A stretch of DNA of 64,000 bases from Scilla litardierei. Its lineage: Eukaryota > Streptophyta > Magnoliopsida > Asparagales > Asparagaceae. The stretch spans positions 147,581,266 through 147,645,265 of the forward strand of contig CM061142.1 in NCBI GenBank assembly GCA_030789695.1, in the 5' to 3' direction. A model generated the notes under the pieces. It was given only the letters and a program-made list of their open reading frames with translations, was not told the DNA's origin and searched no databases. Position 1 is the stretch's first letter; every line of letters begins with the position of its first letter. The position numbers and the translations under genes were made by a program. Shown in pieces: positions 832 to 50,699 of this stretch.

Positions 832-1120
832 TTAAAAACTGTTACAAGTACTGGAGAAATGGACATTACCAGAATCCTCTTCATCATTTTGACTTGTGAA
901 GAACGGAGTGAGATAATTCTTATCCAATGCAGTGAAAGATGTGGTACTGCAAAAGAAACACAAGGGCAAGTAGGTTAAGAAATGAACATTTACATACACA
1001 TGAAGCATACAGATCAAAATACCTTTTATGGAATTCTTTGAGTTTCATCTTTAGCCTGCTGCCAGACGATGATCCCTCATCATATGATGGTGAAATGTAC
1101 CCATTATTCTCTTCAAAGCT
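832..1120 (-). CDS. NHX5/6: NHX exons 19-20 of those visible, C-terminal tail and stop (1023-1120, 832-946)
   Basis: The first exon reads [20 protein letters not shown] then [12 protein letters not shown], and the last reads [18 protein letters not shown] followed by an acidic QNDEED stretch. They are split by a 76-nt intron (GTATTTTG to TTTGCAG). This is the short hydrophilic tail typical of the endosomal NHX class. The TAA stop is at 832-834. A GT dinucleotide inside the last exon (869-868) leaves open an alternative end. No polyadenylation site is claimed; AT-rich sequence follows to about 780. Confidence 0.92.
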
Positions 1121-13100: not shown

Positions 13101-16100
13101 GCATTGGGATGTGCACAGTCTTTGATGCCGTTGCACAGTGTGACTGCTTCAGCATTGCTCAACTCAAAGTTTTTGACAAAGCCCGGAGGCTGGGCTTGGC
13201 TATCAGAAGGTAATCTCTTTTTTGTTTACTGCTCTTTGAATCAAATTTATGTTTCTAGAAGTTAGCGTTACGATCACCTGAACATCAAGGCTTCATTTGG
13301 TTTGAAGGGGGAACCAAATCATGGAATTTCAATTCCATGTTGATTAGTAATTCCTGCACAAAAGAGATCGAGAGATCAACAGAGAGGGAAGGAGGGTAAT
13401 TTTTTCATTCTCGGTCTGTAAACTCAGCACAAATGCATTTTAGGTCTGTGCACAATAGCAAAAATTAGGAGGTCTGTGAACTCAGCAATTAGGTTTGTCC
13501 CAATAGCAATTCCCTTTCAACATGAATAGAAAAAAAGAAAAAAATTAAAATGGTTACCTATGTTTTACCTATTTAGCATAACCAAACTTTAACAAACAGG
13601 GATTTTCCGTCTCAATAAAATACCCTAGAATTAAAATATAAGATATGTGCATCAATCCAGAACTCCCATCATATTTTTGTCAGGAGGACACTTATATTAT
13701 GGACAATGGAGATGAACTTTTGACAAGATCTGTAGACTGGATGCTGTTAAGGGAACTGAACTTTTGACCAAAAAAATATTAAGTTTAAAGAAGACACAAC
13801 ATGGCTGCCAAATTGCATCGCATACTATAATGTGCTGTACTAAACTGGCAGAATCTACCATTTAATACGTACATTGATAAGACAGATGGCTTGCTCTTTC
13901 AAAAGCTAAGCATATGCTTGTTAAATATAACGATTACCTATTATCCTATCAACTCTACAGCAAATATATGAATAGTTATAAAGAAAAAGAACCCAATAAT
14001 TAAGTGAAATCCAGGTGCACAGATTCAGTTTAACATCCATCAAAAAATCTACACATTAACAAAAACTTGCCCTAGCTGGAAGATAATTCTATGAAAATCT
14101 TTAGAGTGTAATGACTCAAAACATCCCCAACGTTTTCGTAAAAATCACTTTAAGTGCCCCTAACATTTTTTTTACATCACTCTACACCCCTAAGCAGTCG
14201 ATTTTCTTTATTAATAATCGAAATGCCCTCTTTTTCTTCATCATCCTCTTCTTCCTTATCCTCCTCCCGTTGGTGTTTCTTCTTCTCATTTTTTTTTATT
14301 TCTTATTCTTCTTTTGTTGCTTTCTTCAACCCCTTCTTTCTTTTTCTCAACCTAGCATCGGCTTATTCCTTGATGCTGGCCTAGGATCCCCGCCCTCTCT
14401 ATCGGACCCCCCCCCCCTCCCCTACTTCCAGGGAGATGTGAATCCCATCCACCTCCACCACCTAGAGCATCATCTTCGATGCCACGAGAGTGGCATGAGT
14501 GATCAAAGAAGACGAAAAAGAAAAAGAAGAAAAAGAGGAGAAGAAAAAGAGAAGCAAAGCGAAGCAGAGAAAATGAATGGAGGATGCGGAGGAGAAGAAA
14601 GAGCAACCGAAGGAGAAGAAAGAATGAGGGGGGAGAAAGAAAAAGCAGGATGAGGAGAAGAAAGAATACGAAGAAGAAAATAAGATGATATTTTGATCAT
14701 TAATTTAAAAATGACAGCTGTGATGTAAAAAACATTAAGATACTAGAGTAATTTTCAGGAAAACATTAGAGAAGTTTTGAGTCATTACCCAATCTCACAT
14801 TTTGAAGTTTATATGTTATGGTTAAAAAAGGAAGGAATCATTGCATGGCAAAAAGTGCCTTCCAGTAAGAAATCATGTTGAAGCATCTAACACATAAAGA
14901 CATATACAGGATCTACAAATCATTAGATGTTTTTATGACAAGTTTGAGCCTTCCAAAATTAACATACATTAAACTTAAAGACAAGCCAAGAAATTTTTCC
15001 TTAGCCTTAATCTACAACCTGAGTTACCTTTGCATGTCAAAAATGATGTCATGAATAAATTAATAGGGTATGCTAAGTGAAAAATATCCCATGTATTGTA
15101 TGTGCATTCCCAATACTGTATATGCATTAATCAAATGTCAAGAACTTAAATTAAAACCCCAACAAATAAGGAAAGAAGAAAATGAAGAGAGCAGAAGCTC
15201 AATTGACATATAAATATTTCTCCCTAAATTTTTTGCTATAAGTGTAAATGAACGACTATTGAAGAGGTTTGACTTGTCTAAATAATTGATTTTCAACCAA
15301 ACGAAACAATAGTATTACGTGATGTACTAGTATAAGATCAATGTGACCATGCCCTCATAAAAATCTACTTTTCGCTATGTAGATTAAATTTTTCCACTAA
15401 AACCAATTGCAATATTAAGAGCCTTGAAATTAACAAATGTGTGGAGAGTGTTTTTTAAAAATTACATAAGGTTGACAGCTCAGAGAAATCCACAAGCCAT
15501 GGAACACGTCTTATCATCGTCTAGATGTTGTGATGCTACCTTATCAAATGCAATGATTATCGGAGACCAGCTTTATCAAATTTAATCATTACACAAGGAT
15601 GAAATTTTTAAACCTATTTTATCAAGAGCCACAACGGATGTGATAACTAATATTTCTAAGTTTGGAGATAACTATAATCTTAGGCAAAGAACATTAATTA
15701 AGCGTGAGTCAGAAAACACACTCTGCTGTCTTTCCTACATTATACACCAAAAATATAGAATACAAACAAGTTGGCTCTATAAGGAACAAATAAGTAATAC
15801 TTCGGTAAAGAAAATGGATAATGCTAGATGAAAATACAAGTAGGTCTGCAACTGTTTAAGTACATCAGATTCAAACTAAGCTCAGTAGATAAAATAAATA
15901 TATAGATATCTAACTATGTTGATGGGAATCAATCATTTTGGGCGAACAAGATAAAATCCAAATCAGAAGTTTAATGAGGATGAAGATACCTTGCAACTCC
16001 TATAAATAACTGTGACATTCCAACAAAAGAAAAGGTCAAGGATACATGAAATTAATGATGACCTTCAACCAGCAAGAAAAATTTTACACACTAGAGAGAT

Positions 16101-18489
16101 TAAAAAGGATACAATTGAAAAAAAGATAAACCCAATATGTGACCAGCTGTGTTGTTCCATGGCAATGTCAAAACCCATATATATGAATCTGCATGTGAGA
16201 AATGTATAACAATTAACAACAAAAAGTTCTCAGAGAAAAATTGCTCACTGCATATTCATCAACCATTAATCTGGACATTACTTACACAAAAGTTTCTGCT
16301 AAAGAAGATATCAAGTGGAAAAAGGCAGCCGTGAACCGTTGAGAATCTTCTGACAAATTTGAGAATGTATAGCGCTTCATGACCTGGAAGACAGTGGCAA
16401 AGTACAGAATAATTCAACATCAAAGGAAGACTATAGATAGCCATACTAGAAACTCAAATGGTACAGAACTATGGATCACTCACAATTCCTGTAAACAATA
16501 TTGAAACAATACCAGACAGGCCAAGCCCTTCAGCTAACATGTACCTGGAAGATGTCGGAAATTGATTAATAGCATGCATTTGGATGACGGTGTAAAAAAG
16601 TTAAAGAGGGTCCACGATATGCTTACGAGAAATAAGGAAAGAGGACAAAGAGGCAAGATTCCAGATTATGAAGACTGCAAACATGAATCAAGGGATATAT
16701 AATTTGCCCTTTTCTTCAGACAAACAACAGTAGCACAGAAAAAAAGAGTAGAGTTGGTGGATAACACTTACTTGTCAATATCCAACCCTGCATACTTAAA
16801 AAGGTGCTCAGTAGTTAAGGTTTTCCAAGACAGTATATGATGAAAATATATGCACAATACTTACAAAATGTAGATAGTTTTCTTATGAAGGACATTCAGA
16901 ATATGCAAGTAATTAATATGTATGACCTTGAAGTATGTAACATATATAAATAATTACAAATAACTATAATCCTAGTTTCCATTTTTCCTATGGATTGGTG
17001 CAATCGAAAGGATTGGCTTGTTTGGCTCAAATTTTTTATAACAAATGCTAAGTATTATTATCCAAAAAGCAGGCCAATCTATTGGATTAATAAATGGAGG
17101 TCTTCACCTTTTGCTAATCCAAATGATCTTTTAGTCACAAAGCCGCTAATTAACTACAAATTGATAACATATGATGGAATTATAATGGCATCCAAACAAA
17201 CCTTGGATTATAAACAAAAGGATTTTTACAGCTTGGAATATAAGGGTAATCCAATGCATACTTCTACAAGATAAGCCCCGTTGGATTTTCATTCCAACAT
17301 CCACACAAGCCTTTAAGGGTAATAGGAAAATTATTTCAAATAATTAGACTAGTCGTAAATTAACACTTGAAGGCATGGCTCCATGACATATATCTATAAA
17401 ATAGGCATGGTATTGCGAGACAATTTTTTACACTTCTACTTTCTAATTTTATTAAAAGTCGGTAGCTTTAATTTAATTTACAAAATTCAACCAAACTAGA
17501 GAAAACATTTGGCTTTCTATTTTCTTCAAAAACATTCTACTTGGACCAAGTTTTGGCAAACACAAGGCTAGGCCCACCGTCCCCCATCTGGAGTCCATAT
17601 TTTGGAGTCTTGAACCGTTATGATAGAAACAAAATTCTAATAAGAAGATGGAACATAAAATTTGGAAGATGAATTTTCTTCAATTATTTTCATCACCCAC
17701 CAAACTAAAATAAATGAAGCTCACAATAATCTCTCACAAAAATACCTTATACACTTACAAATTCTCACAAAATCCCATTAAAACTCCTTGAAACCACATT
17801 GGTAGAATTAAATCCTAGACCCCTTATTTATACTAATCCATAAACTCATAAACTGAGTTGAACTACAACATACAATTGCCTTTCAAATTGGAATCTAAAT
17901 AATATATGACTTTGCACAAAAAAGATATATATATATCCCAAAAATGTACCCGAGGTCGACCTCAGGCAGCAATACCTGAGCACACCCCCGCTGTTCGGGG
18001 TTTGTAAGTTTTTTTTTTGAAATGTTTTTTTGCAGTAGGTATATATATATACTTGTTATGTAGCTTCCCACAAAATTTCAGGTCAATCTGACACTGTTTG
18101 GGCCTCCGTTTATCGATTTCAAAAACGTTGCGCAAAACTGTCCAGGTCGACCTCAGGCAGCAATACCTGAGCACACCCCCGCTGTTCGGGATTTGTAAGT
18201 ATTTTTTTGAAATGTTTTTTTGCAGTAGGTATATATACTTGTTATGTAGCTCCCCACAAAATTTCAAGTCAATCCGACACCGTTTGGGCCTCAGTCCATC
18301 GATTTCAAAAACGTTTTTTAAATCGATACACGGAGGCCCAAACGGTGTAGGATTTACCTGAAATTTTGTGGGGAGCTACATAACAAGTATATCTACCTAC
18401 TGAAAAAAAATTCAAAAATATACTTACAAACCCCGAACAGCGGGGGTGTGCTCAGGTATTGCTGCCTGAGGTCGACCTCGGGCACATTT

Positions 18490-18541
<52 letters not shown>

Positions 18542-21500
18542 CATAAACAAGGATACTTGGGGGCGCCTAACATCTCGGCTACGATTGGGGGCGCCGGCCC
18601 TAGGAGAGATACTTGGGGGTCTCCGGCGCCTGAGTTCCGATGTGTGGGTCGAACCAGCGAGATCTGCCTTCGAGATCCGTGCGTGGGTGCCAGATCCAGA
18701 TCGCCATCAGCCGTCTGTCGGATTCATTGAACGCCGTCCTTTCCGGCGTTCCAGTGATCCGACGTTTTGAAGCGGCATTCAACGTCGAGATCCACTCCGA
18801 GTTCCAATGGTCCGACGTTCCTGTGATCCGCCTGATCCGGCGATCTGACCGACGATTTCGAGCTCCTGATCCGGTACCTTTGAGTGCCTGATCCAACGGG
18901 CGCCTTCGGCCTTTGACTGATGCTGCCTTGTTCCTGTCCGACGACTGTGCTGTCGGATCCTGCGAATCAAGGGTTATTCTAGCCCTCGAGTTCCTGATCC
19001 GGCGACCGGGCCCGGATCCGGCGAGCTGCTGTCGGACCCGACTGGCCTGTCAGTGTTCGCGTCTGGGTGACAGATCTTTCTGATCAGTATCGCATCTGCT
19101 CCGACGGCGAGGGCTTCTCCTCTGGCGATGAGGTCGAGGCCATCTACTGCAGATCCAGATCCGGCCTGCTCTCAAGGTACCACGTGTAGATCATGGGCAG
19201 CAGATCCAATCCCGCCTGTATTAACGCGGGAAACCCTTATCATCGATGTTCTCCTTACTATCTTCAAAGGATATCAACATCTGCTGTAGCAAAGTCAACA
19301 CCCAATTACGTTGAAGAATACCCTCCACTACAATGGAATTCTACTAACATTCGGAAGGAGAAAGCTGCTGGCCAATCACCTACTCCTTTGAGGGTGGCGA
19401 AGACTGGTCGTAAAACCTGGAGTTCGTTGTTTTCTATAGGGCGGTCTGTTGAAAAGGTTAGCAAATGCTCTTACTATCCTCCTCGGGAGGTTCCTTCAGG
19501 CAAGACCGTCCCCTGGATCCCGCAGGAAGCAATCTCTATAAATGTTGCAAAATGGGGACGAACACTAGCCGGTTATGTTGTGGGTGACAACCCTTTCTAT
19601 TCTTATCTTCGTGCATGTGTCCATCGTTTGTGGCGGCCAAAGGGTACTCTGCAGGTCCACTCTAAGGAAATGGTTTTTTCTTCTTCGTGTTTGAGTTGGA
19701 GGAAGATTGCAGCAGGGTACTCCAAAGAGGGCCTTGGATGTTTGATAAAAGGGTGATAGTGCTGCGACGCTGGACTCCAGACCTCACAATGGACAGAGAT
19801 CTTCTGTCATCAATTCAAGTATGGGTAAGATTTCCTGACCTGCCCCTTAAATTTTGGTCTACAGAATGCATAAGAATAATTGCTAGCTTCATGGGGAAGC
19901 CTCTATTTCTGGATAAGGCTACAGCTTTAAGTGAAAGGTAAACCTATGCACGATGCTTTGTTGAAATTGATGCAAAGACCAAATTGCAAAAAACAATAGA
20001 GATTGCTGTGGAGGATGAGGAGAATGTGATCATTAAAATCGAATATGAAAACTTGCCTCCAAGTTGTCCAACGTGTGAGTGCTTTGGGCATTCATCCTCT
20101 CAATGTCCGTTTAAGAAGGTTTAGGTGGAAAAAGGCAAATCTAAACTGTTTGCGGATGGGAGTGTGTTAATTAATGAAGGGAATGATACGAGCAGATGTT
20201 TTTCAGCTACTGTGGCCCGGACAATAGAGACTGGAGGCCCGTCTGGTATAGAGACTGGAGGCCAATCAAATAGAAATGTAGATGTTACTTATGGTGAGGC
20301 AGCGGATATACATGTAATTCCAAAATCTACGAGACCTGGAGGCCCTTCTGGTAGTGATCGCGTTGATGACCCTGACAATGTTGGTGATGGAAATGCTGAT
20401 GAAGATGAATATGAGGAAGAATGGGTGGAAGAATTTGATGGAGATGCTACACCGACAAACCAAGAGTGGGAGGATGAAATGTGTCCGCTTAGCTCCTATC
20501 TTAAAGACACTTAAAAAGATTTGTTTGGATCCACCTCGACGGAAAAGCTCAAGGAATACTCGGAATCCTAACGATAGTTAGGATTCCTTGCTCTCTTTTA
20601 GAGTTGAAGGATTATTTATGTTTTAGCTTCATTGAGTTATATGTTTAGTTCTATTTGTAGACCAATATTGTAATTTGTTGAGTATATGAATAAAGTTGCT
20701 GACCCTTATATATATATAAGGAAACCTAACTAAAGTAGGGTTCAAATTATATTTTGAGTCAAATCCTAACAATCTCCCTCTTGACTCAAAATTGAGCATC
20801 TTCCTTCCTGGATAATTAATGTCTCTAACGCAAATCATCCGTGTAACGGCCTTCAACGAACCATTAACAACTTCACCTTTAGCAGAAATCTACTTCGTCT
20901 TAGACTAAAAATTCCATAATCTAATTTGACTCGAGCCTTCACCGGCAACTTGGAAGCCATCACTCGCACCTTCCTTTGTAGTTACCAACCCCTCAGAATG
21001 CATTACCATCATCTTCCTTTGTAGTTAACTAGCACCTTAAAATGTAACTTCCTTGCTTTGTGATCCATCAACTCGATCAAATCATAATAACTTAGTATCG
21101 ATCAGGAAAAACTAAAGAATCTTATTAAATCATCAGTAACCTTTAGTAGGTCTAATTTCTTAACAATTTCTTCTTTTTCCATTTCTTCTTTTTCTTGGTA
21201 CCTCTCTCTATTATTCGACACCATCACAGTCACCATCTTGAAAGTTCAAATGCAAATTCATTACCTCATTCGATACCAATATGCTATTATATAAGTAAAA
21301 CTTATATAAGAAAAGAAAACATCAATTTTAAATTATGAATTTTCTCCAATTTTATTCATTACCCATCAAACTATAATACATAAAGCTCATTATATTCTTG
21401 CAAAACCCCGATAAACCTTCTTTAAAATACATTGATACAATTAGTTCCAACAGCACTTATTTATACTAGTTCATAAACTCCTAAACCAACTCCTAAACCA

Positions 21501-24500
21501 AATTGAACCATTATACACAATTATCGTTCAAATTAGAATCATAAATAATATAGGACTCGCACAAAAAGATAAAAATAAAAAATAAAACCTAACTTACTTA
21601 GGATTCAAATTAGATTTTGAGTCAAATCCTATCATGAAAAAATTGAGGATCCAGATTTGATAATATGGATATACCTCCAGCAAAATGTCTCAGCTTGGAA
21701 ATTGCTCCTCTTTGCACCATGTCCTTTTTCTTACTATTTTATTTCCTACTGAGTGTAGCAAGGCTCTTTCTCTTTGGCGAGATTGTTTGATAACCTTTGA
21801 CGCAGGTTTGGCTCCCCTTAAAAAATAAATAGTCTATTATGCAATTGAGAGAGTTCCCCACGACCAAAAGCTGTCTACTACAAAAGGGTTGATAAAGGGT
21901 GGCTAAGATTTGGCCACCTCAGCCTAGAAGGGATGGCTGGCCGGAATGGGTTTTGAGGTGTCTACTGGGACGTGGGTGTAGCGATTGGTGTATTGTTGGG
22001 TGCACTTAATTAAAGGGGTTGATTGATTGATTGAGGATGGGCGAGAGCTTCCCACGTAATTATAGAGGTGGCAAAATGCACTAGGTCCTATTCAACCCGA
22101 CACGACCCAAACTTAGCCTCTTGTGCCGTATATGGGTAAGGGCCAATCCGGGTCGGGTAGAATCCCAGTCAACTCGACCGACCCGGATAAAATACAAGTC
22201 AACTCGACCGACCCGAATAAAATCTGGGCCGGGTATGAGTATGACCCATCAACCTGGATGACCAGAATTTTATCCATTTATATGTTATAATATATAATTA
22301 ATATTATCGATACATATAATGGTCACGCCATTGGGAATGTTGGTTACCGATTCTGTGGGCTTGAGGATAGGTCGCTGGTTCGAGTCTCGTTAAATGCATT
22401 GCTTTTAGAGTTTTCTGTTTCAAATTTTAAATAATAGGATGTATTGAATCAATATAAATTTGTTGAAAATCAATAGTTAGCAAATAGCTTTGTAGCTTAG
22501 TGGTAATGTCCTATGTGCTGCTACCCAAGGTCGCGGGATCGAGTCTCCTCTCCGCCGTAGTTTGCTTTACATTGAGGACATCCTTTTTACTTTCAGTCCC
22601 AACACGGCCACCTGAACCCGACCTGAACCCGACCTGCAAAACGAATAGGGTCGGGTTCGGGTGAACACGGGTTACAGCGGGTCGGGTACGAGTTTCCGGA
22701 CCGTGACACGGATCTAATCAGGGTCGGGTTTGAGTATACCCGTATCCGAGTCGGGTCAGATATGACCCGACCTGGACCCGACCCGACCCGTTTGCCACCC
22801 CTACGTAATTACATGTTTGTTATTGACCTTTCAAAATCTCAAAGGGTGTGCCCCTGAACTGGCCAAACCTATTGACCTGACTCTCCTGCTGACCTGACTC
22901 TCCTGCTGACTTGGCTAACTAGCTGACCTTGCCTAGCCAGCCTGACCTTGCCCAACCAGCCTGACCTGACCTCTCTGCCTAACCTGCCTGATTGACATCC
23001 CAGCAGTGACCTACCTTACCTGGCCTATCAGCCTGACCTGCAAGACGAACCTTTCCCAGCCGGCCTGACTTGACCTCCCAGCCTGACCTATCTGACCTTA
23101 TCAGCAAGCATGGCCTGACATGGCGAACCTGATCTATCTGAGATCACGTGGCTACCCTAATCTGCCTGGCCTGACCAGCCTGGCCTGACCCTACCAGACC
23201 AGCCTGACCACATGTAACCCATAGATAATACCCACACACCCACCCATCATTCTATCTTTTGTCTCTTTGTGTGGACACCGCGTCCTTTGTGCTAATTTTT
23301 GTGTTTCAGTGACTGTGCGTTGGTTATTTCTAGTAAATAAATAAATTAGAATTATATAGGTAAAATTGTGAATCAAATGAAACATATGTTATCTGAAAAA
23401 TGCATATGTACACTCGTATATGAATTCTAGACAGCATTAGTTGAACTCAAATAGCTAAAATAATATTTCTCAATTATGTGTTACAGGTAACATGATATGG
23501 ACCTAATTTGAATTTTAGATAGATTCCCTTTTTATTTTATTTTTATTTTAGATTTCAGATAAAGTTTGAGTTTGAGTCCATTGAATATTCTATTTATTTT
23601 AAGTCTTTAGTTATTTTATTTTCGGGCCTTTTATTTATTCTAAGTCTTTTAATTATTTTAGAAATTGTTATTATATATTGAATGTAAATTTTGAAATCCA
23701 AGTTGTAAACCTATATAAAGCTACAAACTTATTTATTTTTTAGATTGATCAATGAATAATAGAAGTTTTAGCGTAAACTTTTAGTTTCTCTATAAAAATC
23801 AAATCTTTCGCATTGGTGTGTGAGAGTGAACTTAGTTGCATATGCGAAAGGTCCGAAAAATCTCTATATGTGAGGCATACGAGTTGGTGATCGTTAGATT
23901 TTTGAGGTGCGAGATCCAACAAGTTATCAACTTCCAAACTTTCATTATTTCTCAAATCCCCACCACATCCCTTCTTGCTTCTGTTTTGCATTAAATTTTG
24001 TATTAGATCTAGATTCTATATCAAGTTTTAAAAACCTTACCTTTTTCATTCTTGTTATCTTTTTCCTCATAAAAATCGTTTTTTCTTTTAGTAAGGTTTT
24101 AGATCGAATATTTAAAAAACATATTTTTCTTTTCTTCTTTTTCACTTCTTTTTCTTTATCATCGTCTTTAAATCTTTAGGATTTTAGATTTAAAACCCCT
24201 AACTTTTCTTCATCTTTTCCCCCTCATCATAAAAACCACATTTTTTTCTTTTTCATTTTTTCAATTAGATTTGGATTTTTTACAAAGTGAGATTAAAAAT
24301 ATTCAAAAAAGAGGGATTAAAAAGAGAGGTCAAAAAAGAGAGACAATTAAAGAAAATGAGAGATAAAAACAAAAAAGAGAGATAAAACGAAAAAAATAAA
24401 AGTAAAATTCAAGAAAAAACAAGTAGAAAAAATTATTTTAAAACAAGAGAAGCAAAAAAACTTTTTACCATCCATACCATCACAAACCCTAGCTCTGTTG

Positions 24501-27500
24501 CCACCCACATCCATCGCCGCCTTCGTCATATCAGGCTTGTTAATCTTTCATGTGATACAATCTAAAGGACTGATTGAAAATTTTATGCACCTGAAAGTAC
24601 TACTGATATTGATGAAGGTTTATAAGAATCCGATGCTTAAGCTAATATTATTATGTATCTACATATAACACTTGAAAATGAGAGATTGTCGAAGGACCAG
24701 TAGTTTTCATACATACATCAAAGTACATGATAAGTCTTACAAATTAATAATTGATGAATGTGATTGTATTAATATTATCGCCAAATCAGCCTTAGAAAAA
24801 AGGGTCTAATAATAGTTGAGCCTCACCCACGGCTATATAATATCAGTTGGATTGATTAGACTGCTTAATTCCATTACCCAACGATGTTTACTAACTATCC
24901 ATTTTACGACCTACTATGATCTCATTTGGTATGATGTTATACACAAAGATGTAGCACATGTTTTGCTAGAAAGACATTAGTTGTACGACCTATTTATGAT
25001 GAGTTTTCAGTGATCAACTACACATGCATTCATATTTAAACAGAAAAAAAGTGAGTTGAAACCTTTCCAACCTAAGATTCGAATTGCTCAAGAGACTGGG
25101 TTGACCTCTGGTAGATCCTAGGGCTTGTTTGTGGAAAAATACGATTTTTAGTGGAGAAAACAAGAGAAAAGAGGAATTGTTATAATATTTTCAGATCTGG
25201 AAATAACAAAGATAAGCCCCAATTCGAGATGGGGAGATCTCCTAACTTTCTATTCGAGAAAAAAGACTAATTCTACAAAGTCGACACCTTGACCTAGGGT
25301 TTACAATCTCCAAAATAAGCATTAGAGAACCATTAGGGCCGGCTAATCCCTATTAACACAATAAACTGCAGTTTTGCATAAAGCCCCCATAATCTTCAAA
25401 ATTGCATAAAACACCCCCCAAGTCAGAATTTACGAGTTTGCCCCTGAAGTTGCTCCTACATGTCTCCTCCGATATGTGATAATCGTATCATTACTCCCAC
25501 AAAAATTGCCACCTTGTCCTCAAGATGGAAGTCTGAAAATTGATGGCTGGTCACCTCCTGGGACTCATATGTAGCATCATAATCCAGCAAACCCCTCCAC
25601 CTGATAGTACCTCATGGTCTCCTACTACGCTCTGACGAACAACTTGGACCTCCTGTGGCTCCAGCAATACCTCCATGTCCTCAGTCAGAGTGGGTGGAAG
25701 AGCAGGTGACAAAGTGTGGTCTCCAATCGCCCGTCGTAGCTGGTGGATGGTGGACGTAGTAGGTAGTTGTAGACGATATGCCACCTTCCCAATTTTAGCC
25801 AACACCTCAAAAGGACCATAATAGCGTGCCGCCAGCTTTTCATTATTCCTTTGTGCCACTGTCTTCTATCTATACGATCGCAGCTTCAGATACACCTTGT
25901 CGTCCACCTCAAAATACACATCTCTCATGTGCAGGTCTTGCCCTTGTCTTCATAATCTGATGTGCTCTCAACAAGTGTCACTTCAACTCCTCCAATATCA
26001 TGTCTCTCTCCTCCAAGTGTTCCTCCACCTGAGACACAGGGGTCGTCCCTCGGCTGTAGTGTATCAGCGGAGGAGGGTCTCGCCCGTAAAGAATGCGAAA
26101 AGGGGTGCTCTGCGCCGCCGAGTGGTAAGAGGTATTGTACAAATATTCTGCCCACGCCAACCACTTAGCCCACGGCTTCAGTGACTCTGATGCAAAACAT
26201 CACAAATATGTCTATACGCTCATGTTCACCACATCCGTCTGGCCATCTGTCTACGAGTGGTAGGCTGTGCTCCCCTTCAAAGTGGTTCCCTACACCTTGA
26301 ATAGTTCCCTCCAAAAACTACTCAAGAAGACTGTCGTCAATCTGATACAATAGAGGCAGGAAACCCATGCAGACACACCACCTCCTTCATGAAAGCCCTA
26401 GCTACTGTTACTGTGGTGTATGGATGCCGTAGGAAAATGAAATGGGCGTACTTGTTGAGGCGGTCCACCACGAAAAATATGACAGTGAAGCCCTCTGACC
26501 TCGGCAGCCTCTCAATAAAGTCCATGATAATGTCCTCCCAGACCCTCTGGTAATGCTAGTGGCTGGAATAGTCCTGTGGGAGCCATCGCCAAATATTTGT
26601 GACACTTGCAGACGTCACACTCCGCTACTAAACGCGGGATATCCCTCTTCATCCCTTGCCAGTACAGCTCTCTGGCCATCCTCCTGTAGGTCTGATGATC
26701 CCCAAAATGACCCCCACCGAGCTGACATGGAACTTCCGAAAATCGTCTGTATATGGAAAGACCCCCCGTAGTAGCAACAACCGCCCCGTGTATAGCATCC
26801 TCTGCTCACTCAGTGTATACCCTGGATACTCTGTAGATCCCTGCTGCAGCGCCTCCCGTTCAATGTCAGCCATTCATCAGCCTCTATCTCCCGTGCCAGA
26901 GGCTCCCAGTCTAGCAGTACCGGCACAGAAATCGTTGCCACCACTGCTACCTCTTCTCTGCGAGACAAAGCATCCGATGCCTTGTTCTCCAAGCATGGCA
27001 TGTACTGAATCTCGAACTGGTAGTGGACCAACTTGGAGAGCCACTTCTGATACTCCTCTGTAACTATGTGCTACTCCAACAGTTACTTCAAACTTAGCTG
27101 ATCAGTCCGTACTACAAACTTCCTCCCCAGCAGATAAAGCCGCCACTTCTGTATGAACAGTACTATCGTCATCAGCTCCCTCTCATAAACTGACTTCATA
27201 AACTGACTTCAGCCGTGATCGAGCTGACAGCACCTGGCTGAAGTAGGCCACCGGTCGCTGATCCTGCATAAGAACCGCCCCAACCCATATCTTGACGTGT
27301 CTGTCTCCACCACAAATGACCTGCTGAAATCAGGCAAAACTAGTACGGGCACTGTCGACATCACCTGCTTCAAGGCCTCGAACACCCTCGTCGCCTCCTC
27401 TCCCCAGTGAAATTTGTCCTTCAACTACTCCATCAATGACCAAGCAATCGTGTTGTACCCCTGGACAAACTTCCGATAGTATCCCGCCAGGCCTAAGAAC

Positions 27501-30500
27501 CCCCGCAATCCTCGCAGTGTCGTAGGACGGGGCCAATCTAACATGGCCATAACCTTCGACCTATCTGCTGTAACCCCATCTGTTGATACCACATGACCCA
27601 AGTACTCCACCTGAGACTGCCCAAAAAGACACTTCTTCATATTGGCGTACAGCTGATGCTGCTGCAACTCCTACAACGCCACCTGCAAGTGCCCTACATG
27701 CTCCTTCAAGATAATGTTGGAAACAAGAATATCGTCAAAAAATACCAGTATAAACCTCCTGAAGTAGGAGCGGAATACCTTGTTCATCAAGGCATGAAAT
27801 GTAGCTGGGGCGTTCACAGCTCAAATGGTATGACCAGAAACTCATAGTGTCCCTCATGCATCCTGAACGTCGTCTTCGGAACATCCGTTGCCCTCATCTG
27901 TATCTGGTGGTACCCTGACTTCAAATCTATCTTCGAAAACACTGTGGCAACATGTAGCTCATCAAGCAACTCATCAATCACTGGAATCGGGAATTTATCC
28001 GACACTGTTTCCTTATTCAGGGCTCGGTAATCCACACAGAAGCACCAGCTGCCATCTTTCTTCTTCACGAGCAGAACCTGGCTAGACAATGGACTCACGC
28101 TCGGCTGGATCACCCCTGCCTACAACATCTCCCCCAACATCCTCTTAATCTCATCCTTCTGTGCCTGGGAGGTATCGGTATGGTCGCACACTGATAAGAG
28201 AAATTCCCTCTCTCACGACAATAGCGTGCTTATGGTCTCATGGCGGTGGTAGACCATGCGCGGTCTGAAACCCCCCCAAACTGGCTGAGCAACTCCTCCA
28301 ACTCTGTCGCCAACTCCTGCTCTCGCCACACATCGCCCTCCTCTAATGATAGTCCCTGAAACTCCACCAAGAATCCCCCTCCTGTCGACTGAAGTGCTCT
28401 GGTCATGGCTCTATAAGAAACTTGGAAACGGCATAGACTGGGGTCCCCTGCAAGACTACGGTACATCCCCATCCTGATACTCCAGCCTGAGTATCACCCA
28501 ATTGGTCTTCATGTCTACGAGTTTCTGCAACCACTTCATCCCCAAGATGATATTTGTACTCCCCAGCTCCAACGGAAGGAAATCGACACCGATCTGAACC
28601 TCCTGGATCGTAAGGAGCAAACCCCTACAAATGCCACTACTCTGTGCCACCTGTCCCGTCCCCAGCACCACTCCAAACATGCATATGTCATTGATCTCCA
28701 ACCTCAGTCTCTCCACCAGCTGGTGGGAAATGAAATTGTGGGTAGCCCCACTATCGACAACACCATCACCTCCAGCTCTGCAATCTGTCCTACCAACTTC
28801 ATGGTGTGGTTTGTAGTGAACCTCACCACAGAGCTGAGAGAAACCTCTGACAGGTCCAAATGTGGGTGTTCCTGATCATCCTCCTCGTCAGCCTCCCACT
28901 TTATCGCGTCCTCTCCGTTCTCGTCAGCCACTATCAGTATCTGCAATCTACGGTTGCCACAACGGTGCCCAGGAGAAAATTTCTTAACACGCTTGAAACA
29001 CAGCCTATTGGCTCTCTTCTCTCGAATCTCAGCCTCAGTCATCCGTCGTATCTGTCCCGGGTCGTGCCTCATCCCATCTCTCCCTGTTGGCCCCTGTCCC
29101 TACAGCTGGTGCTCCTCTCGTGACCACCTTCGGCCCTCATGTAGGTGCATGCTCCTGAAAAGAGGATCCTCCCAAGCCCCACGGGCCTTCCTCTTATGGC
29201 CCAGCCTGTCCTCTACTATCCTCATCAAGCTCATGCAATCTCGCAGACTCGTCGGCCTGCGAGACCTCACCTCTGATTTGAAAGTCAGCTTCAACCACTT
29301 CGTGAAGTTTCCCTCTAGTAACTCTCCCAACCCAACATTGATCCGACTAACCAACATCTCAAACTTCTTGATGTAATCTCTCACGGTCTCGTCCTGCCTC
29401 AGAGCATAAAACCTCTCAAAATTAGTGCATGCAAGTACCTCCCCGAAACGCTCCAGCAAAAGCGTAGTAAACTCCTCTCACTTATGGAAAGACCGGTCAT
29501 GCTGCGTCCATCGATACCACGACAACGCTTCCCCCTCCATGCAGACCCCAACGGTCCTAATCCACTCCTCTTGTATCATAGATATCTCAAAGTATCTCTC
29601 GACCATGTACAGCCAAGAATCTGGGTCCTCTCCCTCGTTGACGGGCATCTTAAGCTTCCTTACTCAGTTTTTCGCACAAAGCCCTCATGGAGTTCCTCTC
29701 CCGTGCAAATAATCATGGCGTCGATGTGGCGGGTGGCGTGGTACCCTATATCCAGGGCCTCCGTCTCTCCCGTCCATCACGTTGCCTCCCCAATCAGCTC
29801 CTCATCCACCTCTGTAGTGCCAACGATCAGCCTCGTGGTCCACGTCACTGTCATCATGCCCCATCTCACGTCCTTGAGGCCCTCCCTCGTAGAAATCAAC
29901 TTCCTCATCATCGCGATGCCGGTCAAACCTCTCGCCCCCTACTATCCAAATCCATCTCGATGGGCCGCTGGAGGCTTAAGTTGGGGCCGGTAGCCCATAT
30001 CCTATCGTCGGGGGCCTAGGCGGGCAGCCATGCCCTTCGGTTCACCGGAAGGCCCTACAGGCCCTTGCGGGCTCGCTAGGGCTCGGTGTTGCCTGGCAAG
30101 CCGCCAGGGCATCGCGCGGCCCCCGATGAACTGCCAGGGTGCCGCATGTGACCTGGTAGGTCGTCGGGACCCTGTGGTCCTCGGAAGCTTCGTCGCGCTC
30201 CTTCGATGCCTCTTTCGCCTTCCCGGATGTCGAGAAACTCTTGTCGCGTCCTTTCGTCTTCGTGGAAGTCGAAATCCTCATCATCCGTCACTAGATCTGC
30301 ATCCGAAAGAAGCCCTTTGCGATACGGATCAATCTTCTCCTTTCCCTTCTCTAAAGCCCTCGCCTTTTTCTCCAGATCTAGGGTTTCGGCTTGTTGGGAA
30401 TCCTTCTTCGTCAAATCATCAAATCGTTGGTGCATGTTTCCATGAGTAACGTAAACTTCCGATCAAAATCGCTCATTTGCTCGTCGACGCTCTGCTTAAT

Positions 30501-33500
30501 CGTTTCATGGATCTCACCTTCAATCTTCGCCAACTTCTCTTACAACACTTCAACTGTAAGGTTTTCTGGGTCCTTAGGCCATAAAATCAACGTCCGGCCC
30601 AAGTCGATCGGACGACGAAACCATAAAAGCAGCGGAAAATAGATCTAAAACATTTTCTAAATCAAGCCCTAAAGAAACAACCCTAGCCAGAATCTCTCTA
30701 TCATGGGGTTGGGTCCGACCAACTCCTAAGGATAGCTCTATCAACCTATATGCAATTATAAACGCATTTTAATTAAACTACATACCTTTCACTTCGTTTC
30801 CGCAGAATACGAAGCGTCGTTTTTAGCAACATTTCTTTATCTCCGAATCGATGCCCTGTGTCGCTTCTCCCGAGCCGAACCGCGTCCCGAATCAAGCAAC
30901 ACCATGTCGCCGCGCTAACCACGCGCCAAAGAAAGTTTCACCTTGAGTGGATTCTCCGTCAAGACTTCGGATCCAATCCAAACTTCTTCGTAGCTTTGCT
31001 AGAGCCTGATCAGGAGCAAGAAAGAATTTGGAAGAAAGAGATAATATTAATTTTCAGTCTTAATCCAAGCGTGCTCAAAACTTTTTAGAGCTTCTCGAAT
31101 TTGAAAACTTGGTGCGAGTTTCAAGGAGTAATGTAGGCCCCTATTTATATAGGCAGCTGACCTCTCCCCTTCTCATCATATCCGATGTGGGACTAAAAAC
31201 TTTGTAGGAAAAATCAATTATAAGTTTGCCTTTGCGAAGGCCAAACTTTGATGAATTTTTTCTCCTTTACCGTTGAGCTTCGCAAGTGATACAACCTATC
31301 AAATCGAAGAGCACTGAACGGTAAACGCATAGAAACAAACGGGGATCTATTCCGACTCCGTTTGACCCTTCAAACGTAACCCCAAAGTTTAGCAAAAACC
31401 TATTTTCTGCTGAAAATTTCAGCCGTCAAAAGACCCTAGGGTTTCTCAAATCCTTGTGGGCCCCACGTGGGGCCCACCAGCTAATGGCGACAGATTTGTT
31501 GCACCCGCCTGCTACAGCAGGCGGGCCCTACATCCGTGGGCCGTGCACAGAACGCGCATGCGTGCACAGTGCACAGGAAGGCCTCGCCCGCATAAAGCGG
31601 GCGGGCCTTGCCTGCTTTGATGTGGGCCCTGCCTGGGCCCAAGCCCAGGCGCCCGGCCTGGGCTTGCCCAGTTGGCCAGCGCATGGGCTTGGTCCCAGGC
31701 TGCAGCTGGGCCTAATTTTAAGGGGCTTATTTTCAAAAAAACAGCTTTAACACGTTAAAGCTTTTCGGCTTTATCTACCTTGGGCCTTTTGTGCTCTATT
31801 TAATTCTCCTTTTAAACAGACTTTCTGGGCCCGTTTAGACTCCGATTTGGACGCGGTTTTCTTTGTGACTTTCACAGGAAAATCATATTCCGTGTCTATG
31901 CCTTTATATAATAAATAGGCTCGTAAATAATTTGCGATGTATTTAAAACATATTGCATCAAATGCAATTTAAACACACATCCTAAATATTCTAAAGCTTT
32001 TGTCACAAACATTTTGTGATGTATTAATTCTCGTGCATCAAATGCATCATCTCCTTTAATTATAAATATTACTTGACGAAAGTCTCACTCTGTGTGAGAC
32101 CATACAGCCTGACCCTACTACAGGTGGGGCTTGAAACTTCAGACAATAGTAACCATGAGCAGCAGGTGTCGTCTCTGTTTCGGTATCGTGTTAACTAATT
32201 GACATGAGTGTTGTCGGGACCACCTTAACTGTGTACGTGATGAATACCGCAGTTTTAGTCCCTTCGTCAAAACTATGTCGCCTAGTCAAACCTAGGGTAC
32301 GATCAAACTGTCAACCCTAACAACTTGGACTTGGTTAGTCTCCATCGGTCTTTAGTCAAATAATGTTGGACTTCTTCCAACATACTTTAGCCAAAGTTTT
32401 TCACTAAAGACCGAACCAACACATGCGACACTAACTCCACATAACGGGAGAGACGAATCCTTTCTAGGTCATTACTCTCCTCGCACACTTCAAGTGTCAC
32501 CCAACCAAAGACCTTTCGACAGGCCTTGCCTCAAAGCTATATCAGTGATCTAAGTGACACCGTTCACGTACAAGTTCATACAATGACCTCAAGTCTAAGT
32601 ACCAACTAGCCTATCATCACTGAGTTATCACTGACAGATTTGTTATGTTTAACCATGTGATAACTCTCGTTGGGTCGTTCGGTGAACTCATTCTCCAATG
32701 AGCACCTGTGTCTCGTCTCCGACTTTACCAAGTCGATCGACCATGAGATCATCGTCACCACTCCATGGTGAAGACAAAGACACAATGGTCTATGATGTTT
32801 TGATATCCTTGTCTCGAAACATCTACGACCACGAACGATTTCAGACTCATGCTACTAACGGTCAAACAATTCTACATGATCGAGATCCTCAATTCGATAC
32901 TTGGTTTAACCTTACATTAAGTCTCAGGACTTTACCTAAGGTCTAATGTTGACTACATTATTATTAACTTAGGTTGTTTGTACATGAACACATAGATAAA
33001 TTGCCTCGAGGGCATACTCATCTCCCAACATCAACACTATCTTTCGACCTCGTATTCGCCATGGATCAACTGCTCTGATACCACTTTGGTAAATCATAGT
33101 GCTTGTTTGTGGAAAAATAGGGTTTTTAGTGGAGGAAACATGAGAAAAGAGGAATTTTTATAATATTTTCAGATCTAGAAATAACAAAGATAAGCCCCGA
33201 TTCGAGATGGGAATATCTCCTAACTTTCTATTCGAGAAGAAAGTCTAATTCTACAAAGTCGACACCTTGGCCTAGGGTTTACAATCTCCAAAATAAGCAA
33301 AAGAGAATCATTAGTGCTGGCTAATCCCTATTAACACAATAAACCGTAGTTTTGCATTAAAGCCCCCCTAATTTTCAAATTTGCATAAAACACCCCCCAA
33401 AAGTCAGAATTTAGGAGTTTGCCCCTGAAGTTGATCATGCGCACCTCCTCCGATATGTGATAATCGTATCAACTTCCGACGAGCCAAGCATAAGGAAGTT

Positions 33501-34913
33501 TTGGATGTTAAAAAAACTTGAGTCTACAACCTTATTAGAAATTAAGTTTGAGCCTGAATCTGAGATGAACCTACATCTACAATACAATCTGAGCCACGCG
33601 ATGAACATATGCTAGCACATATCTTGAAGACATAGTTTGAGAAAATTGAGCATATAGAGTTTGCCATCACAGATCATCCATATTCTACCAACAAGCAGAT
33701 CTATATGCATTCATCTTTTATTATTTGAAAGAACTTTCAAAAGATAATCATCTGTAAATCTACATCCTGCTATATTGCAAAGCTCATGGATGCATCTTCT
33801 CTGATTACAAAGGACGGTTGATTTCAGTCATGTTGTGTTATTCATGTCGTCATTCACAAGGTTAAGTTCTCAAGCCAGTAAAAATAATAGGGATCCCATT
33901 TGAATTTGAAGTTCTCAAGCCAGTAAAAATGATAAAATGGTAGTGATCCAATTTGATTTTTGATAGGATCTTTTTTTATTTTAATTTTAGATTTTAGATA
34001 GAATTTGAGTCCATTAAGTATTCTATTTATGTTGAGTCTTTTGGTTTATTTTATTTAGGATAGAGTTTAAATTATTTTTAGTCTTTTATTTATTTTAGTT
34101 CGTTTAGTTACTTTAGAATTTTTATCACATATTAAATGTAAATTTTGAAAATCAAGTTGTAATCCTATATAAAGGCTACAAACTAGCTTATTTTTTAGAT
34201 AGACAAATAAAGAATAGAAATTTTGGTGTAAATTTTTAGTTTCTCAATAAAAATCAAATCTTTTGCATTGGTATGCGAGAGTGTGCTTGGTTTTCTGGGC
34301 AAGAGGTCTGCATGCGAGGTATGCAAGTTTGTGATAATTAGATTTTCGGGATATGAGATCCGAAAAGTTATCAAATTCCGAACTTTCCTTCATTTCTAAA
34401 TCCCCACCACATCCCTTCCAGCTTCCGTCCTGCGTCATAACAGCTAACATGACAATTATACAATAAAGTCTAGAGAATATAAAATTAGACGTTCATCAAC
34501 ATGCATGCATGTATAGTTATGTATTATTTATTTATGCATTCATAAATATGTGTTGCAAAAGGATATCAATGCTGAAGTGAATCCAACTCCAACCCCTGCA
34601 AAACAGAGTATCTGTTAAAAATGTTCTTAAAACAAAAAACAAAAACTTGAGAAAAAACAAGTAAGGCTGCAGAAAACAGAAAGCTAAAAGATTAGAAGCT
34701 CATATGAAGTTATGTACTAATTTGAATTTTTCAAACCCTATTGTTTGGCATAGAAAGCTGTCAAATAAATGATGTGCAATGAAAAAAAAATTTCCAAATT
34801 TAAGCAATAATAAGAAAAATGCTTTCAGCATTCATATTTAGAAAATACATTAGTCAATATTTACAACTAACTTATTAATAACTATAGATGTAAAAAAGGG
34901 CACCTCCCCCCCC

Positions 34914-34956
<43 letters not shown>

Positions 34957-37900
34957 ATGCCAGGCATGAGCAAGATGCCACAAGCGAACGAAAATATTTA
35001 ATTTCTTGTGGATGTGGGTGCATCCAAACTATTTATTCAGATGTTATGGTAACGGCACATCAAAAATAGTTAAGTTCAAAATTAGGTAATATAATAGCTT
35101 AAACTGAAAGATTACAAAAACAAGCTCAGGTGAAACGCTACTTATTGTTCTCTACCAACCAAGTGATCTCTCAGAACTTTATGATCAGGAACATAGAACG
35201 GAATTGCAGATGTATATCAAGCATCTTGGAACAGTCCAGCTAACTGCCAATGCAGGAATGTTTTGCATAAAGAGAAAAATACAATATCTTTCATAATGAT
35301 TATATGAATCACAATCATTGTTAAGATATATCATATGAAGGTCAGGAGTTAGGACTTCAAACAAAATGCATTTAAATATTGACACAATGCCCAATTTATA
35401 TCCCTCCTAAAACTGCACATCATATATTAATGTACTATGTTTTGATTTGAATACTACAAAGACTCCAAACTAACATAACTAACGACTGGCAAACTGGTAT
35501 ATGTAGTGACAGATGATCCCCTTCTCTAAAGAGGGGGGAACATATAAACATAATAAGCTTCAACTCAACCTAGAATAAACATCAATTTACTCTCCCTTTA
35601 GGAGAAGGCCAACCAAACCAGATGCACATTACCATTCTATTCAGTAAATGCAAATGAAATGCTGATGTTTCCATGTCAAAATAAGATGTAAAAAGAACTT
35701 ACTAAAATGATATTCATATAAAGAGTTGAATCAGCTGACTGACCTGAAGACAGTGAGCCAACGAATGTTTCAAGAAACCTCACTACAAGTATAAATAAAT
35801 TCTGCCCAGAAGCTTGACTTCTTACTGATGACATTGTTCTGCACCGAAAGTATCACCATATTTAAAATTTAAAGCAAAAGGAACACATGGAGGAAAGACA
35901 CATACTCAAGCCCTTGGAACTAACCTGTATAAGGAAATTGCCATCTTCAATATTGCCAAGATTAACAAGAAAATGTTCAGGTAAGAAATAATTTTATTAC
36001 CAAATAAAACTATGTAATAACATTTTAGAATAAGTATCGGATACCAGCAAATGGGAACAACACTCACTGCATCATTTAGAACAGATTCTCCAAACACCAA
36101 GGCATAAAGGTTCACATCAGTCCCAAGTTCCTGTAGCAGATAGAAATGCATTAGCATAGCATGTTTGCATCAAGTGCAAATTTAACATTCAAGAGAAAAG
36201 TTCTCGGTACAAATTTGTCAGTCGTAGGTTAGTGGTAGAAGGTGATTAGTTTTCTTTGACGGATGGTATTTCCTCGATGGATGACTGCATAATATAGTAT
36301 CTGTATCACTTTTTTTCTCTTCTTCTACTTTTTTGTGTGTGCATGCACATGCGTGGAAAATAGTCCATAGCCTGGTGCAAACAGGGTTTGAACCTCATAC
36401 ATCTAGCATGGTGCACTTTTCCAAGTTTGCTACAGTGGCACTTTCATATTGGCTAGTATTTGGCAACAGTAACTTATAATGAAGTTCATCTGATGATACC
36501 AAAATAAGACAAGTATTGATGCGGAACGGAAGGGGGAAAGGTGTGGAGGAAATTGGGGAAGAACTATGGATTTGATTTGATATACTTTCAGGCCTCGCAC
36601 CCCGAAGATATGACAATCACATATTCCAAGTCTAGCATGTGAAGATTTTTCGAACCTCACATCCAAGCAACCAAGCCTCCTCCCGCACCTCTCATGCTCA
36701 AGATTTTTCAAGTGGCAAATAATATTTGCACAACTTTAAATTTTATTTAATAACTCAACTCAATGATCTAAAAGTTTGATAATAAAGCCATATTTATAGG
36801 CAAATAAAGACAAATTTATTCGTACTCAAACTCTTGAGTAGACTCAAATTAAGGGAGAGCACGGTCTCAAACCGGCGGTTTGGGACCTAAACCGAACCAG
36901 ACCGTATAAGTAGCGATTTCTCATAGGCCAGACCAAACCAGACCGTCAGACCGACGGTTTCTGAGCCGACGAAAACCGCTTGGAGCGGTTTGGTTTGGTT
37001 TGGAACCGCGGTTCAGACATATGATGACAGAAGATCCCCTCGTATATCCAATTTTGCTAAATATAGACTTTGTCTTTGAAATAATTTCTTGACATTGCTT
37101 TATTAAACCCCAACCAGCAGATCTGAGATCCGAATCAGCAGCTTAAACGACTCATTACATCAGTTCCTCGTTCCCCCAGCAAACCCACTGCGACCACCGA
37201 AGATGGGTTGCGCGACTGCGTCGAACAGCTTCTCAATGCCGGCGTCGGACTGCTTCTCAACTGAAAGAGAAGAATAAATAAGAAGATGAATACGAAGAAA
37301 AACAACAAGAAGAAGAAAGAAAAAGAACGATGAGGAGAGGTTTACCTGTTCCTGGTGTTGGCGATGGCTGATGGGCTGACCGCTGATGGAGAATTAGCGA
37401 TGCTCAAACGGGAAAAAAACAAATGCAGTCTGAACTCTGAAGAGTGAAGACTGGAGATTGAAGAAGGCAGATAGCCAAATATGGCCGGTGCGGCGCCGCT
37501 CAGTCTAAAGGCCTTAGCCTAGGGTTCCTAGGGACTAGGGTTTAAATCCCAACAGATTTTCAGCACAATATATAATATATGTTAGGAGTCGGTTCGGTTC
37601 GGTTTAAACGGTTTCGACAGGGTGAAACCAAACCAGACCATATAAGTGGCGGTTTCCAACGATTGAGACCAAACCAGACCGATGGAGAGCGGTTCGGTTC
37701 GGTTTTTGGCTCGGTCTGGTTCGGTCCGGTTCGGTTCGGGCGGTTTGAGCAAACCGTGCTCACCCCTAACTCAAATAAAGACTCATAAATAGACTCACTC
37801 TCAGATAAATAAAAATTAAAGAGATTTATTTAGAATATGAAAACCTAAATTTTTTTAAATATGAAACTAACTAAAAGACTCGGATTCTTTTTAAACAGGA

Positions 37901-40900
37901 AACCAAAAGGACATAAAAATTTATTAAATCTAAAAAAGATTAAAGACCACAAATACTAAACCGACTTAAACTCTAATAACAACGTCGAATCCAAGTTGGA
38001 TTCCTATCAATTGTTCCCGATTTTGAAGATTCGCCACCTGCTTAATAATGACAATGATTCGATAGAAAAAAGTAGTTGGAGAATATTTATCCTTCAACTT
38101 CGAAATAAACCAACAATGTAAACTTGTAAATGGCATCTCCTGACGAACGTATCAAAATCATAAAAGATAGAAAGACATGCAAACATGCTTGTTGGTAAGA
38201 TGAAAAGAATATGGGATGATAAACTCAATATGCTCAACTTATTTAAGCTCAACAAGTAGCTCAAATACCGGCTTCAATGTGAACTTCAATTAAGATGTTA
38301 ATTCAAATAATGTCTCAGACTTTACTTCTAACTTCAGTTTCATCTCAGGCGTAGGGTCGTGATCTGATTGAAGCCTACTTGCAGACTCGGGTTCTAGCTC
38401 AACCTTAATCATAGACTCATACTCAGGATCAATCTTGGGCTCGGGCTCGGGCTCGGGCTCTGACTAGGATTAATTATGGACTCAATCTCGGACTCTTGTT
38501 CATGTTGAGGCTTCATTATGCTTGTCTTCATAGAGTTTAACTAATTCTTTTGATCAACTCAACCCTTCTGTTGGGACGGGATCAGCACAAATTTCTACTA
38601 CCTAAACATTAAGGTGTGTGTTTAACCTTTCAAAAAATCCTTACATCTAGGTCGTACAACCAAGACCTACCTAACAAAACGTGTGGCTTCCAGTGATATA
38701 ACATCATAACAACTATGATCATTCGAGCTCGAAATCTAGATAGGTATTAAATTACATTGGGTAACTCGATGAACGATTTTATCAACTCAAGTGACGGTAT
38801 ATATGGTTATGAGTGAAGTTTGGTTTTTAGACACATCATCTCTAAACTGATATAAAGATAATATTAACACAACTATCTCCATCATCATCAATTTATAGAA
38901 ATTATCTTCTTCCTTGATGTAGGTATAAAAATATTACTCTTTTGTCAATCTTCTTCGCCATTGGGTAGTGCAAATAAATACATGATGATATTCAGATAGC
39001 GCTAAACTCATATAAGTCATCATCTGCGTCATTAGCGCCATCCTCATGCATATCAGTTGCTTCTGTCATTCCTCTAAAATATATAATCACTCGAATTGGC
39101 TTGTAACTAGCTCAAATAGTTTGAAAAGCATGCTTAAACGGTTTCAAAACCACTAAAATAATGAACCTAGAACAAAAATAGCTGAAAATCCCTCAAAACT
39201 TTGAAATCATATTGGATCCAGGTCGGTTGAACATAAATCATATCAGGTTTGCTTTAGTTGGATCTACGTCAGCTGAACTTAAATCATATTGGATTTGATT
39301 TGGGTTCAAATCATGAAGCGGATTGGACCTGCTACTATTAGGTCGGATTAAGATCCAAATTACTAAAACAAAATTCAGTCTCTGATATAAGACTTGATCT
39401 ACTTAGGATTTATGGCTACAAGGTTTTGATTCTTGATGATGACGACCACCAAAAGGTGTGATGGCAACTGAGGGGAACCGCGACCATGGTGAATCACGAT
39501 AATGACATCGACGGTGCCTAGACATGATGACAGCGCTGACCATATAATAGGATGTCAATGGTGACAGTGACAATGGAGGAGAATGATGATAATGGTAACT
39601 ATATGTTGGGTCGATGATGAAGTGGTTGTTGGTGAGGGAAGCCAATGATGATAACAAATGCACGTGAGGTGGCAGCAGAGGCAGACGACGTGGTGGCAAT
39701 GGTCAGAGGACGTCGATGTCGATGAAGGCCCTGACGACGACAGTGATGACAACAATGACAATGATCGTCGTTGGCGATGGCGACAATGACAAGGAGAATA
39801 GTCATCGGAGGCAGCTGCGAGAACGGAGTTTGGAATCAACGACGATCAAGGTTGTTACTATTGAAATTGATGGAGAAGATGATGGCATGGTGTGGCGCTA
39901 ACAGAGAAGGTGACATGAGGGCTATGTTTTGAGTTTCATTTTTATGTGGGGTTTCGGTGGTAATAAAGGAGAAGATTATCAATATAAATTTTCTTTTTTG
40001 ATTATTTTGCTGGAAATGAAGAAATTTTTGGTTGTAACTAATACCTAATTAAAGAGAAGTAAAAAGGATGATGATGATGATAGGATGATGAAAGATCTAC
40101 ATCGAAAAACATGATTTTTAGATTTGATACCCAATTGATGCTGAACGGAAAGGGGGAAAGATGTGACTGGAAAAATGGGAAAGAACTTACTATGGATTAG
40201 ACGGAATTCCACGCCTCGTATCCCAACGAGAACTGATGATCATCATTTCAACACCTCGCACAAGAAGATTTTTTTGGACCTAACGCAAGCACACTCACAC
40301 ACCTTTCACGCCCAAGATTTTTCAAGTAGCAAACAAATATTTATACCTCTAAATTTTATTCAATAACTCAAATTAATAATCTAAAAGTTTGATTACAAAG
40401 TCATATTTATATGTAAAACAAAGACTAATATGACTCCTACTGAAACTCTTAAATAGACTTAAATAAAGATTCCAAAATAGACTCAAACATTTAAATAAAT
40501 AAAAATAAAAAAGATTGTTTCGAACGGAAAACTCAAAAAAGTCTGAAATTCCTTAGACAAGAAGCTAACTGAAAGACTGGAATTCCTTTTTAAAAGGAAC
40601 CCAAAAGGACTCAAATAACTCTGAAAGGACTCAAATACCACAAATACCAAACCGGCCCAAACTCAAATAACAAAGTCGAATACAAGTTGGATTCCCATCA
40701 AGTATTCTTGTATTATATGGTTGAACATGGCGGACGCATAATTCTCTGTTGGACTAAGTATCCTTGTTGGCTGGCAAGATGAGAGAGATCTTTCGTCATT
40801 TAAGGAAACTTGAAGTAAATTAGTAGCATGTTGCAGGTTCAATACATATCTCTAAAGTCACTGCTTATCTTTTTAAGACAAGCAAGGGTTATTAAGAAAT

Positions 40901-43560: not shown

Positions 43561-43946
43561 TACATGCACAATCTAGATAGAAATGAATTGGAGTCTAAGG
43601 AAGGTTGTTCTAATGATGTCCTAAGACTGAAATGAAGATGTGTGTGTGCTCCAACAAAGTTCTACTTCTAAGCTACATACTAGAAGAGAAACAAGAAAGT
43701 TACATTTGACGAACTCTCTCTTCTATCCAACGCATGAGCTTGAAGTCTTCTAGGAGATTCAATCACCATCTACGATCCTCATATCCATTTCATTTGCTTT
43801 CAATGATCTTTGAGTATCATCCATTGCAAGTAGATCTTCATAATAAGCTTAAGCAATGGATTAACTGCAAAATAGGGGATTAGTCACAAGTATTTATGTT
43901 TGCTCATCATTAACACCAAGTAGGAAGAAGTCCAATACTCAACATT

Positions 43947-50650: not shown

Positions 50651-50699
50651 TCTTTTTCTTTCTCTTGGTTACCTACATAGTATACTATAAGCTCATGGT

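Follow-up and report, generated by a model that had tools for sequence, protein, structure and literature searches.

A 17.8-kb AT-AC intron of the U12 type, lengthened by transposons, in an NHX5/6-type antiporter gene of Scilla litardierei

A 17,763-bp intron with AT-AC ends interrupts an NHX5/6-type antiporter gene in the 64-kb stretch of the Scilla litardierei genome analyzed here (the window, C13:147581266-147645265, within a 3.68-Gb assembly). With a probability of roughly 0.8, we read it as an old, conserved U12-type intron of a working gene, which was lengthened by transposons and is most likely removed whole by the minor spliceosome.

Gene layout and splice signals

The gene lies on the minus strand (870..41911, with 870 as a provisional 3′ limit) and has 20 coding exons in the window. 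Joined from 41911 to 870, these gave a single open frame of 447 codons. Exon 1, which encodes the N-terminus, was found 2.8 kb past the window edge (C13:147648247-147648055), beyond an intron 1 of 24,878 bp, and was open too, which bears out the open frame described in the initial annotation. The PF00999 domain (Na_H_Exchanger) was present in all of the best 120 of 5,085 matches to the window protein. Among these, the highest identity over the full query was 89%, with the Elaeis guineensis exchanger 6, and no protein in the matches listed was more than 89% identical. A 50-row tree placed the protein with the palm pair, in the monocot set (SH-aLRT 82), although no set was strongly supported. 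Judged by its closest homologues, NHX5/6 (exchanger 6), the gene is a plant endosomal Na+,K+/H+ antiporter of the NHX5/6 type.

The focal intron (16804..34566, minus strand, phase 0) is flanked by two small exons on the same strand, of 29 nt upstream (34567..34595) and 32 nt downstream (16772..16803). The next introns beyond these exons, of 1,148 bp upstream and 97 bp downstream, were U2-type by their ends. The 5′ splice site ATATCCTTTT (34557..34566, minus strand) fits the U12 AT-AC criterion ATATCCTT(T). U12 branch sites are close to TTCCTTAAC and usually lie about 10-20 nt ahead of the intron 3′ end. Here, AACCTTAAC (16814..16822, minus strand) matched TTCCTTAAC at 7/9 positions, about 10-12 nt before the junction, and no polypyrimidine tract was visible near it. 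The 3′ end reads CCTTAACTACTGAGCAC, with a terminal AC.

Taken by themselves, these motifs are near chance level and weak evidence for a U12 intron. In the 64 kb, ATATCCTTTT occurred once over both strands together, where a dinucleotide model predicts 0.2 occurrences per strand, and CCTTAAC lying 8-16 nt ahead of an AC was found twice on the minus strand versus 1.45 expected. Two features count against the reading as a working U12-type intron, namely the 2/9 branch site positions off consensus and a decoy donor, ATATCCTTTG, within the intron at 19274. The evidence is instead that the motifs coincide at the sole junction required by the protein, together with conservation elsewhere. When donors 34585-34520 were scanned against acceptors 16880-16773, only 34567/16803 (AT..AC) yielded the conserved 21-residue peptide. 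A chance origin of the motifs was rejected, since the junction is both unique in the scan and conserved. The coordinates, donor, branch site and terminal AC of the initial annotation were thus confirmed, as was its in-frame join of conserved NHX blocks. By its sequence, the focal intron is of the U12 type, AT-AC subtype, a class already known and of a conserved kind.

The window gene has three U12-type introns in all. The other two are short and on the minus strand: an AT-AC intron of 122 bp (41577..41698), with ATATCCTTTG, TTCCTTGAC and a final AC, and a GT-AG intron of 103 bp (16010..16112), with GTATCCTTTTT and a branch-like ATCCTTGAC that lies farther than usual from the intron end, at about 27 nt. 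Two exons measured only 20 nt (35944-35925 and 16009-15990), with equal sizes in the second gene copy described below. The 5,042-bp intron at 41172-36131 had a GC donor (CAG|GCATGC), where the second copy has a GT donor.

Transposons and the second gene copy

The focal intron had been described as packed with nested transposons, and an LTR element was indeed found within another LTR element. The outer one (23493..34437, plus strand, antisense to the gene) had LTRs of about 500 bp (23493-23993 and 33938-34437) and a perfect 5-bp TSD, TAACA, at 23488-23492 and 34438-34442. Its right edge lies 124 nt away from the focal donor, and a search for coding sequence in its own internal part found none. 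The inner, Gypsy-type element (25109..33471, minus strand, the gene's strand) had LTRs of 382 bp (25109-25490) and 385 bp (33087-33471), and a TSD matching at 4/5 bases (ACCTC/ACTTC). On the gene's strand, Pfam recognized a protease, an RT, an integrase zinc domain and Tf2-1 SH3 in this element, all in broken frames; a gag match was below the cut-off. The AAGTGGTATCAGAGC adjoining its LTR resembles a tRNA-Met primer site. Together, the two elements make up 10,945 of the 17,763 bp (62%). The LTR divergence was 0.092 substitutions per site for the inner and 0.230 for the outer element, computed with LTR limits slightly different from the final ones.

Further repeats were a fold-back unit at about 17941..18489 (no strand assigned), with TA runs on its flanks, and a DUF4283 open frame at 19666..19938 (plus strand; Pfam, 94 bits), in a segment near 19190-20511 that we take to be LINE-type. 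A segment at 32006..32953 (no strand assigned) was 71% like window 6660-7615, another at 24683-25109 was 66% like window 38951-38532, and the pair 17619-17933 / 21285-21577 shared 66% identity. The frames 30079-30462 and 17965-18375 had no Pfam matches at the thresholds used. Of the at least seven insertions counted in the initial annotation, two are proven by their TSDs, and the further repeat segments have no defined bounds; seven is a possible number. Outside the focal intron, the window had a second, inverted Gypsy-like stretch (58920-61727), 67.6% like 26295-29180 of the inner element. Inside the 24.9-kb intron 1 there was a Copia-type element (42120-54914), with 1.83-kb LTRs that were 96.5% identical (K2P 0.036).

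The same genome carries a full second NHX5/6 copy, at C7:167991284-167890704, with 21 coding exons and an open frame. Its small exons (29, 32, 25, 20 and 20 nt) are as in the window copy, and it too has three U12-type introns. At the focal position there is an AT-AC intron of 11,173 bp, starting with ATATCCTTTTC and having TCCTTAAC ahead of GGATAC. The donor of its intron 1 (C7:167991100) reads GTATCCTCAC, which is U12-like, and GTAATCTCAA in the window copy; this is probably chance.

Between the two focal introns there was one match of 721 bp, with 65% identity and in opposite orientation, and nothing else at E 1e-4. Shared transposon insertions behind both introns were rejected on this ground, and the two introns have probably grown independently. 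Once the two gene copies had parted, transposons, mainly the LTR-in-LTR insertion, would have brought the window intron to 17.8 kb, and the C7 intron would have been lengthened separately to 11.2 kb. Nested LTR elements are difficult to assemble, and transposon sequence misplaced between two exons could mimic a long intron. We consider such an artefact extremely improbable, given a window without any N in an 825-Mb contig, the TSDs around both elements, and the long intron at the focal position of the C7 copy.

Conservation and probable continued use of the gene

Traces of the focal intron were recognized in deposited plant proteins. ALISF (14 proteins) or ALISL (1), with additional residues ahead of LFKY, was read in 15 of 170 fetched proteins, a sample deliberately enriched for such cases, so that 15/170 is no frequency. 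This is the translation expected of an ATATCC(TT) donor misread by a predictor without AT-AC introns. The proteins were all from eudicots: Penstemon, Lactuca, Gossypium (3), Hibiscus (2), Ambrosia, Raphanus, Syzygium, Olea, Sesamum (2), Taraxacum and Nepenthes. At the gene's other AT-AC intron, an IILYP read-through was found in 12/170 proteins, including the monocot Musa. The direct junction was present in 18/18 “lgn” proteins among the best 120 of 5,085 matches. Their contigs (1.7-2.5 kb) look like cDNA, being short and holding the whole frame. Together with the C7 copy, the protein read-throughs, as indirect evidence, indicate that the focal intron is conserved in position among plants. Predictors often misread the focal junction in other plants, and therefore U12 introns of this kind are probably under-reported.

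The spurious residues at AT-AC junctions in deposited NHX6-type proteins represent a systematic annotation error (P0107, P0113, P0121-P0126, P0128-P0130, P0132, P0133, P0145 and P0149).

The window and C7 copies differed by a dS of 1.01 and a dN of 0.096. The dN/dS of 0.095 (bootstrap 0.064-0.127; 509 codons) points to a constrained gene, and spans the entire time since the duplication, mostly predating the insertions. The initial annotation had reckoned with an intact NHX copy elsewhere and a silent one here. The intact copy exists and could carry the function. Poor splicing of the focal intron would be costly, since its retention stops translation after 8 codons and skipping both small flanking exons shifts the frame. 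A window copy that is silent or being lost, with the C7 copy doing the work, is nevertheless very unlikely. All exons of the window copy are open. Its protein had one change in 255 columns at least 97% conserved across the other 120 rows of the alignment, and 36 of the 121 rows change none, these rows being best matches and hence a favourable sample. Lineage-only amino-acid changes numbered 24-27 in the window copy versus 30-41 in the C7 copy, and were fewer in the window copy against 6/6 outgroup proteins.

A simulation of the frame (1,341 nt) argues in the same direction. If free of constraint, the frame stayed open in 0.55% of the runs since the inner insertion and in 0/4000 since the outer one, with kappa 2, three quarters of the indels shifting the frame, and LTRs and gene mutating equally fast; if LTRs mutate more rapidly than genes, as they may, the simulation is too strict. 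A pseudogene was rejected as unlikely on the conserved columns, the simulation and the fewer lineage-only changes. The window copy does not appear to be decaying, and the case for its continued use is strong.

Intron length, proposed removal and known systems

The six U12-type introns of the two copies measured 100, 101, 103, 122, 11,173 and 17,763 bp. Four of their 34 U2-type introns were longer than 10 kb (13.3, 24.9, 28.4 and 36.2 kb), and the two classes did not differ significantly in length (p 0.19, few data). Intron lengths correlated between the copies (rho 0.81). The focal size is striking, yet it accords with the large size of other introns in this gene.

Among the titles and abstracts searched, none gave a plant U12 intron above 10 kb, which is not proof of absence, and 17,763 bp is far above the lengths reported in the plant examples compared. 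U12 intron lengths are described as tracking genome size or U2 lengths (PMC7367187, PMC10639083), retention as favouring short minor introns and alternative splicing long ones (PMC6717393), and longer CBP20 U12 introns as better spliced, over a range of 76-2733 nt (PMC5932401). Since U12 length follows genome size and retention favours short introns, length sets no known limit, and a long U12 intron is expected in kind in a 3.7-Gb genome. On these accounts, the earlier suggestion that length is hard for the minor spliceosome is unsupported; one published finding does fit its worry, namely that long minor introns undergo alternative splicing more often (PMC6717393). The suggestion that the intron tests how far exon definition can reach was off target. 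Exon definition here spans the 29- and 32-nt exons, and the 17.8 kb must be bridged by the cross-intron pairing that follows.

With respect to the machinery, we detected one match for the U12 snRNA in the genome, with a TCCCACATCG element upstream, which we take to be like the plant snRNA promoter element. The U6atac snRNA had seven matches above cut-off. In the proposed removal, U11 and U12 would recognize the focal 5′ splice site and branch site, and factors at the neighboring U2 sites would help across the small flanking exons. The donor of the 97-bp intron, bound by U1 and 32 nt downstream, would be a likely aid. The ends of the focal intron would be brought together afterwards, and the intron most likely removed as one unit. 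Exon-bridging with the major spliceosome reportedly involves minor introns (PMC8034651), and their intron bridging is reported to be different owing to the cooperative binding of both ends by the U11/U12 di-snRNP (PMC3584512).

The intron could also be removed in stages, with internal U2-type sites, or a cryptic exon, spliced first and the minor spliceosome closing a shorter remainder. Many U2-like sites must occur in 17.8 kb of transposon sequence, SRSF10 is reported to have a U2 intron nested within an AT-AC intron (PMC8329584), and the same commoner alternative splicing of long minor introns would fit. No candidate internal exon came up in an unsystematic look, and we consider staged removal unlikely. 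Compared with it, removal as one unit is the preferred reading. Its strictest form, in which a single U12 event pairs the 29- and 32-nt exons over 17.8 kb of nested transposons, and over 11.2 kb in the case of the paralogue, is put forward tentatively, at somewhat under even odds. If true, the plant minor spliceosome would be efficient without close ends or normal-sized exons, and intron length would cost nothing visible to selection. The focal intron had 18 AATAAA strings in sense and 17 in antisense. With these sense strings and the inner element in the gene's orientation, protection from premature polyadenylation, known from IBM2-dependent rice genes (PMC7145194), may matter more than splicing distance.

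The focal length is remarkable, its cause ordinary. Its value lies in the ready-made controls. The paralogues, with AT-AC introns of 17.8 and 11.2 kb, form a natural test of a plant U12 length limit. As built-in controls, each gene has two short U12 introns (100-122 bp); U2-type introns of 13-36 kb and the very small flanking exons (29 and 32 nt) lie alongside for comparison.

Among the closest known systems is NHX5/NHX6 of Arabidopsis, of the same family. U12-dependent splicing of these genes reportedly fails in minor-spliceosome mutants (PMC4892727, PMC3422263), and u11-48k mutants show defects in the U12 introns of AtNHX5 and AtNHX6 (PMC4892727). The positional match of the focal intron rests on the protein read-throughs of other plants. 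CBP20 of land plants likewise has a conserved U12 intron beside a small exon (34 bp); the length of this intron differs greatly among species, reportedly from 76 to 2733 nt (PMC5932401), versus 17,763 and 11,173 bp here. In the IBM2/EDM2-dependent genes of Arabidopsis and rice, a long, heterochromatic, LTR-bearing intron must be read through, as in the focal intron, but the issue described there is premature polyadenylation and not U12 introns (PMC7145194).
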